Positions 24,511 to 51,722 of a DNA stretch of 64,000 nucleotides are shown here, one piece after another. This stretch comes from Olsenella sp. An293 (GTDB lineage Bacteria; Actinomycetota; Coriobacteriia; Coriobacteriales; Atopobiaceae): assembly GCF_002159495.1 (NCBI RefSeq), contig NZ_NFIT01000004.1, positions 62,001 to 126,000 of the forward strand. The letters run 5' to 3'. Positions within the stretch are counted from its first letter, which is position 1. The number at the start of each line of letters is the position of its first letter. The position numbers and the translations under genes were made by a program. Under the pieces are notes generated by a model that saw nothing but the letters and a program-made list of their open reading frames with translations, was not told where the DNA came from and ran no database searches.

Positions 24511-24580
24511 TTGACAGTGACGTCAGGTTATATTGTCAACCTCACCGCGGGTTGACAATATAACCTGACGTCACTGTCAA
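24511..24580. repeat. 29-nt TTGACA/TGTCAA unit pair, head to head
   Basis: Two perfect copies at 24511-24539 and 24552-24580 in opposite orientation, 31-bp arms with flanking CC/GG and an 8-nt loop. Each unit begins TTGACA and ends TGTCAA around ATATAACCTGACG. Lies between convergent genes. Confidence 0.9.
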
Positions 24581-39393: not shown

Positions 39394-39536
39394 GGGTATG
39401 TACACCCCGGCCTGAGGGTATGTACGCTGCCGCGGCGGCTCGTTCTTCTCGGCAATGCCCTGACCTGCGGATTTGCAGCCCACATTTGACGGCGGGACGC
39501 ACATACCCTCGAGGCGGGGTGTACATACCCTGAGGG
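39394..39536 (-). repeat. Boxed-core intergenic repeat
   Basis: Boxes GGGTATGTACACCC (39394), GAGGGTATGTACGC (39414), GCACATACCCTC (39499), GGGGTGTACATACCC (39516). Core on the minus strand: CAAATCCGCAGGTCAGG ... GCCGAGAAGAACG (39441-39451 end). In the gap between the glycosyltransferase and the ferredoxin gene; the remaining gap shows a second variant GCCGAGAAGGACG at about 39561. Confidence 0.8.
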
Positions 39537-41828: not shown

Positions 41829-41863
41829 CGGGGCGGCGCGCGGCGGGGCCCGAGCGAGCCCCT

Positions 41864-41961
41864 GAGGGTATGTACACCCTCTCGGTCCGCACGTTCTTCT
41901 CGACAGCTCGTCTACCAGCTGATTTGCAAACCGATAAGTCCGGGGCAGTGTACATACCCTC
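41864..41961 (-). repeat. Boxed-core intergenic repeat, short form
   Basis: One box each side: GAGGGTATGTACACCCTC (41864) and GTGTACATACCCTC (41948). Minus-strand core GGTTTGCAAATCAGCTGGT ... GTCGAGAAGAACG (41892-41902). A second GCGAGAAGAACG follows at 41971. Confidence 0.8.
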
Positions 41962-41993
41962 AAAAGCCGGGCGAGAAGAACGCGGCGCCGCGG

Positions 41994-42863
41994 CTACTCC
42001 CCGTGCACCACCGCCGCGAGCCCGGCCGCCTCGCAGCGCGCGACGACGCCCGCGACGTCGGCGTCGGAGAGCTGGGGGACGTCGCGCAGGGCGTAGTCGC
42101 GGCCCGTCGCGTCATACTTGCCCTGGCCCAGCTGGTGGAACGGCAGCACGTCCACCCGAGAGAGCCCCAGCTCGCGGATGCGCGCCACGTTGGCCGCCAC
42201 GCAGGCGTCGTCGTCGGTGAAGCCGGGGATGATCGGCATGCGCGCGACCACGCGCGCCCCCAGGCCCAGGACCGTGCGCAGGTTGGCGTCGCGCAGCTCC
42301 GGGTCGATGCCCGTGACCTCGAGGCTGCGCGCCCGGTCCGCGATCTTGAAGTCGACGAGCAGCACGTCGCAGGCCGCGACCAGGCGCGCCGGGTCCTCGA
42401 GCGGCAGCGCGAGCGTGGTCTCGACGGCCGTGGAGAGTCCCTCGGCGCGACACGCCTCCAGAAAGGCGAGCAGGAAGTCCTGGCACAGCAGGCACTCCCC
42501 GCCCGAGACCGTGACGCCCCCGCCGCTCTCCTCGAAGAAGGCGCCGTCGCGCGCGACCTCCGCCACGAGGTCGTCCACGGTGCGCGTACGGCCGAGCAGC
42601 TCCTTGGCGCCGGTGGGGCAGTCCTCGGGCGCCGTGGCGCACGGGGCGCCGCCCGGGCGCGGCGAGCAGTGCATGCAGAGACGCTCCTTGAGGGAGACCT
42701 CGGGCTCGGCCGAGAGGTTCTCGGGGTTGCAGCACCACGGGCAGCGGAAGGGGCAGCCCTTGAGAAAGACGACCGTCCGGATGCCGCCCCCGTCGTGCAG
42801 CGAGAAGCGCTGGACGTTGGTGACCGTGGCGGGGTTGACAATATAACCTGACGTGTTTGTCAT
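41994..42863 (-). CDS. Glycyl-radical enzyme activating protein (radical SAM)
   Basis: 289 residues. VQRFSLHDGGGIRTVVFLKGCPFRCPWCCNPEN holds the CxxxCxxC 4Fe-4S/SAM motif; a degenerate ferredoxin insert follows (CMHCSPRPGGAPC..DCPTGA), then GGGVTVSGGE. It makes the glycyl radical on the enzyme encoded just upstream. The first residues come from a 29-nt repeat: ATG at 42863 and an alternative TTG at 42896 lie in successive repeat copies, and neither has a good ribosome site. Confidence 0.85.
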   Translation of the reverse strand: MTNTSGYIVNPATVTNVQRFSLHDGGGIRTVVFLKGCPFRCPWCCNPENLSAEPEVSLKERLCMHCSPRPGGAPCATAPEDCPTGAKELLGRTRTVDDLVAEVARDGAFFEESGGGVTVSGGECLLCQDFLLAFLEACRAEGLSTAVETTLALPLEDPARLVAACDVLLVDFKIADRARSLEVTGIDPELRDANLRTVLGLGARVVARMPIIPGFTDDDACVAANVARIRELGLSRVDVLPFHQLGQGKYDATGRDYALRDVPQLSDADVAGVVARCEAAGLAAVVHGE

Positions 42864-42896
42864 GGGGTTGACAATATAACCTGACGTGTTTGTCAA
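42835..42896. repeat. 29-nt TTGACA/TGTCAA unit pair, tandem, read into a protein
   Basis: Units at 42835-42862 (followed by TG) and 42868-42896, 33 bp apart, the same sequence apart from the end. The 33-bp period keeps the frame, and read on the minus strand each gives TNTSGYIVNP. It lies exactly between the stop of the glycyl radical enzyme and its activase. Confidence 0.9.
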
Positions 42897-42899
42897 AGC

Positions 42900-45236
42900 T
42901 CAGCCCAGGGTGTGCTCGGTGCGGTTGATGATGTCGTCCTGGATCGCGCGGGCGAGCTCCACGAACATGGCCGAGTAGCCCGCCACGCGCACCACGAGGT
43001 CGCGGTGGTCCTCCGGATGCTTTTGCGCGTCGATGAGCGTTGCCCGGTCCACCACGTTGAACTGGATGTGCTGGATGCCCAGCCGGCAGAAGCTGCGCAG
43101 GTAGGCCACCAGGCGCTCGATGCCTGCCTCGCCCTCGAGCGTGGACGGGGAGAACTTGACGTTGAGCAGCGACCCGTTGGTGTCGCGCACGTTCTCGAGC
43201 TTGGAGACGGAGAGCAGGCTCGCCGTGGGGCCGCTCTTGTCGCGCCCGACCATCGGCGAGAGCCCGCCGTCGGCGAGCTGCTCCCCGGCGCGCCGACCGT
43301 CCGGCGTGGCGCCCACGGCAGCCCCCAGCGGGATGTGCGCCGACACGGTGTAGCTGCCCGGCTGGAAGTGGCCGCCGCGGACGTTCTCGTACTTCTCGAC
43401 CTCCGCGCCGTAGTGCGCGAGGAAGCGGCGGCCAATCTGGTCGACCTCGTCGACGTCGTTGCCGTACTTGGCGTAGCGGTTGACAAAGCGCTGTCGCCAG
43501 ACCTCGTCGCCCGTGCCGGACCAGTCGCGCGCGAGCATCTGGAGCAGCTCTCCCCAGCCGAGCGCGCCCTCCTCGAAGACCGCCTTCTTGACCACGTAGA
43601 GCGAGTCGGCGAGGTTGGCCGTGCCCACGCCCTGCACGCCCGAGGGGTTGTAGCGCGCCCCTCCGGAGGTGATGTCGGCGCCGCGCTCGAGGGAGTCGTG
43701 CACGAGCACCGAGAGCAGCGGCGTGGGCGAGGTCTCGCGGTGCGCCTCGTCGCAGGCGTCGCAGCCGCGAACCATGAGGGCGACGTAGTGGTCGATGGTG
43801 CGCTCGACCTCGCGCTCGAGGTCCTCGTAGCTCGCAAAGCCCTCGGGATGTCCGGTCATGGCCAGCTCGAGGCAGCGCATCATGTTGAACATGCAGATGT
43901 CGTGCAGGCCGTACATGCGCCCGGGGATGGAGAGCTCCACGCAGCCCACGACGGCGTAGTCGCGCGCGTCGGCGAGGCTCACGCCGCGCCGCACGAAGGA
44001 CTCGACGTTGACCTCGTCGTTGAAGCACTGGGGCAGGCCGTCGCCCAGCCGGATGATCTCCGCCGCCTTGCGCAGCAGCGCCTCGGGCGATCCGGCGTGC
44101 ACGCGCACGCTCAGGTTGGGCTGGGGCAGGCGCGTGTCCCGCTGGAGGTCGAGCAAGAGCTCGGAGAGCTCGTTCGCGGCGTCGCGTCCCTCGGCGTCGA
44201 CGCCTCCCACCACGAGGTTGTAGCCCGTGGGAAAGCCCGCGAAGAACTTGGCGCTCTCCGTGGAGCGCACAAAGACCACCGTGTTGGTCTTGAGGTAGAA
44301 GCACTGGAGCAGCTCGCGGACCTCGTCGGCGTTCGCGCCGGCCGCCACGCTCGCGCGGTAGTAGGGCAGCAGGTACTGGTCCATGCGGCCCAGGCTGATG
44401 GAGCTCGCGTTGGACTCGTGCTGCAGCGCCACGCAGACGAGCCAGGTCAGCTGCAGCGCGTCATAGAGGTCACGGCAGGGCTCGGTCGCCACGTGCGCGA
44501 GCACGTCCGCCAGCCGCGCGAGCTCGGCGGCGCGCTCCGGCGTGACGGGCAGCGCAACCGTGGCGTTTTGGTCCTCGGGCGCCCGGCCCTCCGCGGCGTC
44601 GCGCACGATGCGCTCGTAGCGCCGCACGTAGCCGACGAGCGCGCGCACGCAGAGGGCACCGGCGCGCAGGAAGTCGTTTCCCGGGGCGGCGGCGCTCAGG
44701 CGCTCGACCTCGGCGAGCAGGTCCCCCAGGCCGCGCCCCAGCACCTCAGGGATGTCGGCGATGATGTGGCCCTGGCCCTTGTCGGTCTGCGCCACCGCGA
44801 AGACGCGCTCGGCCTCCGCCGCCGCCACGTCGTCCGGGCGGTGGGCCTGGTACCAGTCATTGAGGCTCTGACCGGCCCAGAAGGGGTAGAGGACCTCGCG
44901 AAAGGTGCGCTTGTCCCGCTCGCTCATCTCAAAGGTGTCCTGCGGGCGCACCGGAAATTGGTCGAGCTCGTCCATGATCCAGTAGGGTGACATCTCCGGC
45001 GAGAGCACGCCCGCGCGCGGAGTGGGCGTGCGGTTGCCGGCAAGCAGGTCGTCCCCGTCGATCACGATCCGGTGGCTCTCCAGCACGTGGGCAAAGGCCC
45101 GCGCGCGACGCATGACCGGGGGCTGCCCCTCCGTTCGCAGGTAGCTCTCGCGATACAGCAGCGCCCGCTCGAGCGAGATCTGGCGGGGGTTGGCAAAGAG
45201 GCTCTCCTTGATGCGTTGGGTGCGCGGCGTGAGCAT
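42900..45236 (-). CDS. Glycyl radical enzyme of the pyruvate formate-lyase/dehydratase family
   Basis: 778 residues. The radical glycine is Gly753 (RVAGYSAMF), and the active-site cysteine is in DYAVVGCVELSIPGRMYGLHD. Single Cys followed by VE (as in dehydratase/lyase members), not the Cys-Cys of true pyruvate formate-lyase, so it is probably another diol dehydratase or C-C/C-N lyase. ATG at 45236 has GGGAGAG; longer ORF starts lie in non-coding sequence. Operon with its activase. Confidence 0.85.
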   Translation of the reverse strand: MLTPRTQRIKESLFANPRQISLERALLYRESYLRTEGQPPVMRRARAFAHVLESHRIVIDGDDLLAGNRTPTPRAGVLSPEMSPYWIMDELDQFPVRPQDTFEMSERDKRTFREVLYPFWAGQSLNDWYQAHRPDDVAAAEAERVFAVAQTDKGQGHIIADIPEVLGRGLGDLLAEVERLSAAAPGNDFLRAGALCVRALVGYVRRYERIVRDAAEGRAPEDQNATVALPVTPERAAELARLADVLAHVATEPCRDLYDALQLTWLVCVALQHESNASSISLGRMDQYLLPYYRASVAAGANADEVRELLQCFYLKTNTVVFVRSTESAKFFAGFPTGYNLVVGGVDAEGRDAANELSELLLDLQRDTRLPQPNLSVRVHAGSPEALLRKAAEIIRLGDGLPQCFNDEVNVESFVRRGVSLADARDYAVVGCVELSIPGRMYGLHDICMFNMMRCLELAMTGHPEGFASYEDLEREVERTIDHYVALMVRGCDACDEAHRETSPTPLLSVLVHDSLERGADITSGGARYNPSGVQGVGTANLADSLYVVKKAVFEEGALGWGELLQMLARDWSGTGDEVWRQRFVNRYAKYGNDVDEVDQIGRRFLAHYGAEVEKYENVRGGHFQPGSYTVSAHIPLGAAVGATPDGRRAGEQLADGGLSPMVGRDKSGPTASLLSVSKLENVRDTNGSLLNVKFSPSTLEGEAGIERLVAYLRSFCRLGIQHIQFNVVDRATLIDAQKHPEDHRDLVVRVAGYSAMFVELARAIQDDIINRTEHTLG

Positions 45237-45374
45237 GCGTCTCTCCCTTAGTCGTGGCTGGACCACAGTGTAGCGCAGACGCGCGGCGGGACGGCGGCCG
45301 GGGCGGGCCGGGTCGCGTTTAACATCCGGGCCCGACAAGAGCGAGAATGACGAGAAGAACGGCGGGGCAGCCCG

Positions 45375-51662: not shown

Positions 51663-51722
51663 TTGACAATATATCCTGACGCCAGTGTCAAGTTTGACAA
51701 TATAACCTGACGCCAGTGTCAA
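51663..51722. repeat. 29-nt TTGACA/TGTCAA unit pair, tandem
   Basis: Units at 51663-51691 and 51694-51722, 31 bp apart, differing by one base (ATATATCC vs ATATAACC). They sit between the ribosomal operon terminator and ecfA. Confidence 0.9.

Follow-up and report, generated by a model that had tools for sequence, protein, structure and literature searches.

A tandem pair of dispersed palindromic repeats as the probable start region of a glycyl-radical enzyme activase gene in Olsenella sp. An293

In a 64,000-nt stretch of the Olsenella sp. An293 genome (contig NZ_NFIT01000004.1, positions 62,001 to 126,000; the window), two palindromic repeat units occupy the place where a glycyl-radical enzyme activase gene should begin. 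This raises the question of what these units are and where translation of the activase starts. The preliminary description of this locus placed two 29-nt units between the stop codon of the glycyl radical enzyme and the activase, with a 33-nt period that keeps the frame, which was confirmed by the identity of two 32-nt stretches and by TRF (score 130, 100% match; Table 1). Read on the minus strand, the units span the interval that separates the TGA of the radical enzyme from the activase body, without a stop codon in the activase frame. Each unit has TTGACA/TGTCAA arms and a 17-nt middle; in the unit beside the activase body, a T takes the place of the final plus-strand A, giving ATGACA. The preliminary description did not mention the two other unit pairs of the window (Table 1) or the wider family in the genome. 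Frame keeping by itself was set aside as weak evidence because the steps at four other tandem sites (30, 30, 30 and 39 nt) are also divisible by three.

Table 1. Positions of the junction features, the adjacent genes and further repeat pairs in the window
Feature	Position	Strand	Remarks
Tandem pair, identical 32-nt stretches	42831-42862 and 42864-42895		Period 33
Palindromic unit beside activase body (second in gene direction)	42835..42863	-	Candidate ATG 42863-42861
GGGG linker separating the junction units	42864..42867	.	33-nt total step, activase frame kept
Palindromic unit beside radical-enzyme stop (first in gene direction)	42868..42896	-	Candidate TTG 42896-42894
TGA stop of glycyl radical enzyme	42900..42902	-	
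Glycyl-radical enzyme activase (radical SAM)	41994..42863 from ATG, or from 42896 if TTG	-	TIGR02494, PF04055
Glycyl radical enzyme, PFL2/3 subfamily	42900..45338	-	TIGR01774 862.9 bits (over cut-off), PF02901, PF01228
Head-to-head (inverted) unit pair, intergenic	24511..24580	.	31-bp DNA stem, z -12.4
Tandem unit pair, intergenic	51663..51722	+	TRF, core matches

The activase matched TIGR02494 with 257.4 bits (cut-off 174.35), and its translation contains the CxxxCxxC motif as KGCPFRCPWC. As judged by eye, the true start of the upstream glycyl radical enzyme is probably an ATG near 45236. Another short intergenic element (GTATGTACACCCTC / GTGTACATACCCTC) was seen in the window at 39491-39535 and 41860-41965, near two genes that resemble glycosyltransferases by eye.

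In the activase frame past ATG 42863, no ATG, GTG or TTG occurs before codon 63, which lies beyond the CxxxCxxC motif; an ordinary start is therefore either ATG 42863 or TTG 42896. Both codons lie within the units, as the preliminary description had stated, and the TTG is 3 nt past the stop codon of the radical enzyme. On the basis of the sequence, the activase start most likely lies in the repeat. We lean slightly towards ATG 42863, and TTG 42896 is a serious, if somewhat less probable, candidate. Two indications conflict here: most relatives start 1-6 nt past the stop, a rule that favours TTG 42896, whereas the uniqueness of the ATG favours 42863, since a TGTCAT end was found in only one of the 84 units of this genome, namely the one giving that ATG. 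The anti-SD duplexes at the two candidate starts have energies of -3.2 and -2.4 kcal/mol, and those at three other starts tried are about -10.6 kcal/mol. The earlier remark that no ribosome site is visible thus holds insofar as there is no strong site, but this is not peculiar to the repeat: an orthologous activase without units (genome G016) has an equally weak duplex of -2.4 kcal/mol, so the repeat is not the cause. These weak ribosome sites suggest coupled translation.

The same units are dispersed throughout the 2.31-Mb genome (hereafter G000), where they have the form 5'-TTGACAATATAACCTGACG-N4-TGTCAA-3'. Their 19-nt core was matched six times in the window, compared with 0.00 expected from 100 shuffles, and 83 times in the genome with at most three mismatches, while the reversed control gave no match. 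The G000 stretches fetched around the listed sites contained 84 units at 49 sites, including 21 head-to-head pairs, eight tandem arrangements (seven of two units and one of three), two mixed clusters and 18 single units. A purely local coding repeat at the activase is therefore ruled out, as the junction units are among about 80 dispersed copies. Two inverted pairs that were folded form long DNA stems; the fold of the junction tandem pair is weak (z -2.2). According to a home-made gene finder, 40 of the 49 sites are intergenic. Among the nine that overlap genes, seven do so at gene ends, by about 12 bases or fewer, and the others are those in the activase and in gltB. The TGA of units touching gene ends can serve as the stop codon, and passages of PMC3733652 report such donation of stop codons for the ends of other REPs. 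Moreover, a general form, TGACA-N7-CAGG-N6-TGTCA, was detected in 22 of 31 genomes of the genus (up to 177 copies, with a control of zero in all) and in 38 of 297 genomes sampled from the order. Another variant, TGACAATTAGGACAGGTT-AATTGTCA, was observed in G018 and G016, which lack units at the activase, and also in G000 (C1:92734 and 92804). Two genomes of other genera in the same family, G283 and G183, have many units of the same build, and those of G283 are often near-perfect palindromes (TGACAATAGTGCCAGGCACTATTGTCA).

Twelve close orthologues of the activase were found among the 31 genus genomes. Units are present at the junction in seven of them, with two units each in G000, G015 and G009 (Olsenella sp. 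An285) and one each in G008 (Thermophilibacter mediterraneus), G022 (T. provencensis), G017 and G011. They are absent from G016, G018, G006, G026 and G030, which include the three nearest relatives of G000; in the protein tree, G000 groups with three unit-less species with a support of 93/95, short of full. A comparison of the number of units in sister strains had been proposed earlier. Once run, it showed that the number does vary (2, 2, 2, 1, 1, 1, 1, 0, 0, 0, 0, 0), but the sisters carry other variants: the junction units of the six other species are local forms spelled differently from those of G000. Likewise, the expected change of 11 residues per copy agrees with the 33-nt step in G000 and not with two sisters, in which the step is 30 nt (10 residues). 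In all seven unit-bearing orthologues (G011 by eye), the first base of the unit is the first base of a codon, which is weak evidence alone because the seven represent about four independent lineages and a TGA closes one of the phases. The units of G009 and G015 have A as their first base, resulting in an ATG 2 nt past the stop codon of the radical enzyme. The ATG of the G008 unit lies 5 nt past this stop, with a further ATG at 2 nt, and in G017 the TGA of the unit is itself the stop codon of the radical enzyme. The proposal that translation begins within the repeat is thus supported by the lack of an alternative before codon 63, by the unit of the same phase in seven of 12 orthologues, and by start codons in the unit or at its edge.

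Two Y1_Tnp genes were identified in G000. The stop codon of one of them (C34:110770-111597) is overlapped by a unit, and a second unit lies about 100 nt upstream of the gene, so that units stand on either side of it (at 1473 and 2426 of locus L205). The encoded transposase exceeds the gathering cut-off of PF01797 (Y1; 48.8 bits, cut-off 23) and falls below that of NF047646, the NCBIfam REP transposase model (68.4 bits, cut-off 80, E 6e-19). Its C-terminus, at about residues 237-273, gave helix-turn-helix Pfam matches, all under cut-off (best E 0.0011). Several relatives in the genus with 67 to 50% identity are flanked by differently spelled palindromes of the same build (L206, L208 to L212, L214 and L215), and so is a 41% relative (L230). 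At L207 (G011), the flanking arms differ (GCGCCA/TGGCAC), and these units, missed by the arm pattern, were recognized by eye. Flanking units were not found at twenty other Y1 loci scanned, three of which (L213, L233 and L234) are 56% identical. The genes beside the unit-flanked transposases are syntenic, with DNA identities of about 96-99% for one flank and 80-89% for the opposite flank (one side only for L211, and only 94 bases of one side for L208), and the transposase locus is therefore inherited. In five of the six species compared (G000, G015, G008, G017 and G011), the junction unit is closest, or tied for closest, to the unit flanking the species' own transposase. In the sixth, G009, the transposase flanks that were checked (L211 and L156) bear variants unlike the junction unit, which counts against a simple one-transposase rule. 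In addition, G006 contains 25 exact units, yet its best match to the G000 transposase is 51% identical. The second Y1 gene of G000 (L031 1061-2008, contig C5) has GGGGACnGTCCCC pairs on both sides, a TIRYT-type family, and the 16-mer TGGGGACTGTCCCCAA recurs at 12 positions of the G000 stretches that were fetched.

Judging from these sequence comparisons, it is likely that both junction units are copies of a dispersed palindromic repeat associated with a chromosomal Y1 (HUH), RAYT/TIRYT-like transposase, and that the activase starts at a terminal ATGACA or TTGACA. The transposase would nick and copy single-stranded hairpins, which are described as the substrate of Y1/HUH enzymes in parts of PMC6006769, and the units would spread or be rewritten in this way. 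A unit would have landed or persisted between the stop codon of the radical enzyme and the activase, where its terminal ATGACA or TTGACA would act as start codon; the repeat would then encode the first 11 to 22 activase residues. These residues would not belong to the conserved radical-SAM core, and additional ones may be harmless at such a position; translation would initiate by coupling to the stop codon of the radical enzyme.

The positions of the units were also compared between genomes. A G009 unit was found between both syntenic flanks at no fewer than nine of the 49 G000 sites, compared with two of 197 unit-less gaps (p 1e-5). The proportion is 8/48 when the known junction is removed (p 4e-5) and 7/47 when the transposase locus is removed as well (p 2e-4). 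At least three of the 49 sites are shared with G008 and at least 12 with G006, whose units are spelled as in G000, against 0/197 unit-less gaps in both cases. These counts are lower bounds because only the regions around the units listed for each genome were compared; for G009, exact-form units alone were considered, and one G006 site (C18) was left out. Loci L181 and L180, added with knowledge of the junction, are part of the Fisher counts for G009 and G008. Three further candidates for shared sites were dropped, since the units lay outside the gap (L117/L261), one flank was at 68% (window position 51663/L250) or only one flank was available (L114/L246). For the junction and seven other shared sites, eight in all, the agreement of the 17-nt middles is 0.468 for the same site and 0.477 for different sites between genomes; within genomes, it is 0.80 and 0.77. 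Addresses are thus conserved between species, unlike spelling: middles at the same site are no more alike than those at different sites. The pairing type at shared sites is often identical. These data are consistent both with descent accompanied by in-place turnover and with repeated re-insertion.

It is quite possible, although we would not bet on it, that the junction units were gained independently in each lineage, in a permissive gap, rather than by descent with turnover, which would be compatible with the transposase-linked origin proposed above. The unit-less state of the three closest relatives of G000 and the lack of extra similarity between same-site units fit independent gain; the eight of 48 other sites common with G009, the often identical pairing type and the codon phase shared by all seven orthologues speak against it.

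A second in-frame case was found in gltB. The gltB gene of G000, which has three glutamate-synthase Pfam domains, contains one unit in frame between the amidotransferase and central domains; two of G009's own units lie in frame in the same linker of its gltB, and a unit-like palindrome is present in the G005 linker. The linker could be read by pattern in 11 of 30 loci, and G000 was read separately. A longer palindrome, CAAGGTCCG...CTGCAGAACTCGCGGCGGACCTTG, was also observed in frame in the gltB linker of several species (L134 at about 2430-2560; L297-L320). The gltB linker is thus a tolerant region that collects palindromic inserts. Under the transposase-linked explanation, coding frames would tolerate units where extra residues are harmless, such as the activase N-terminal tail and the gltB linker. 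More tentatively, the inherited transposase and its repeats may co-evolve, with addresses that last as long as the genus, spelling rewritten everywhere at once and two addresses within coding frames; a repeat system, and not ordinary mutation, would then rewrite the start and N-terminus of a metabolic enzyme.

A regulatory role was considered as well. The units could be 29-bp operators with TTGACA/TGTCAA arms that are bound by a regulator and have a regulatory function at the activase, their coding frame being accidental. That most sites are intergenic, and that species share positions although the unit sequence differs from genome to genome, as for sites co-evolving with a binding protein, would agree with such a role. 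However, the 40 gene-free sites are mostly between genes of the same direction (30), with eight between convergent genes and only two between divergent ones (home-made gene finder), units flank the transposase gene on both sides and occur inside gltB, and a promoter/terminator scan of 42600-43100 gave 0 sites and no sigma-70-like promoter. We therefore regard the operator explanation as unlikely. Slightly less probable still is a translation start elsewhere (at a non-standard codon, for instance a CTG in the core, or by read-through from the radical enzyme) with the units as untranslated leader: although passages of PMC3733652 state that many N-terminal intragenic REPs are actually untranslated, with the start downstream, standard start codons are missing up to codon 63 of the activase, past CxxxCxxC, the ATT at codon 7 is itself within the unit, and the unit-less activases of G016, G018 and G006 begin at an ATG 2-4 nt past the stop codon of the radical enzyme. 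A peptide bearing NTSGYIVNPATVTNVQR would contradict an untranslated leader.

If the repeat-derived start is correct, two consequences follow. Start calling by orthology is unsafe for these activases, since their N-termini are probably derived from repeats. Moreover, REP-type turnover becomes directly testable, as about ten species with syntenic transposases allow the same addresses to be compared, two of these addresses having a coding readout.

The family is a transposase-associated palindromic repeat that is closest to TIRYT/TIRtron and REPIN/RAYT systems. As in the TIRtrons and TIRYTs described in parts of Di Nocera et al. 2013 (PMC3733652), a RAYT-like Y1 gene is flanked by inverted repeats, some of them self-complementary, and the flanking repeats form a moderately abundant dispersed family, often as dimers. 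Unlike some TIRs in that account, the junction unit lacks the GGGGWSAS motif, which does occur in the repeat pairs beside the second Y1 gene (L031). The main text of that paper does not contain TGACA, TGTCA, Olsenella, Eggerthella, Collinsella or Actinobacteria. Features shared with REPIN/RAYT systems are short palindromes, head-to-head pairs, a transposase between its own units, a syntenic locus and local variants; in contrast, our units begin with TTGACA and end with TGTCAA, without the GT[AG]G tetranucleotide at the foot, and the G000 transposase is under the NCBIfam REP cut-off. Syntenic RAYT genes with different classes of flanking REPs in related strains also characterize the orthogroups and orthoswitch presented in parts of Nunvar et al. 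2013 (PMC3686654), where it is noted that new REP variants may partly replace old ones; here, as distinct from those passages, shared positions were counted against unit-less gaps, and two of the positions are coding. Rickettsia palindromic elements and intragenic REPs resemble our cases in being in-frame palindromes in real genes, N-termini included, and different REPs occur at about one site in recB of two Xanthomonas species (both in passages of PMC3733652). They belong to another family than the units reported here, which in several species probably supply a start codon. According to portions of PMC6006769, TnpA-REP subclass 2.1 has a Y1 core with an HTH-like C-terminal extension, to which the Y1 core and the putative, below-cut-off HTH-like C-terminus of the G000 transposase may correspond, but the authors found no REP-like sequences adjacent to those genes, whereas units are abundant here. 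An open-access literature search returned no report of such transposase-linked palindromic repeats in Coriobacteriia. From the portions of PMC3733652, PMC3686654, PMC6006769 and PMC8049555 that deal with these subjects, dispersed RAYT/TIRYT repeats, intragenic REPs, stop-codon donation and class switching at syntenic RAYT loci are already known. As far as our searches show, the unit family in Atopobiaceae and its association with a Y1 gene that has a putative HTH-like tail are new, and so are the recurrent supply of start codons and the counted sharing of addresses with different spelling.
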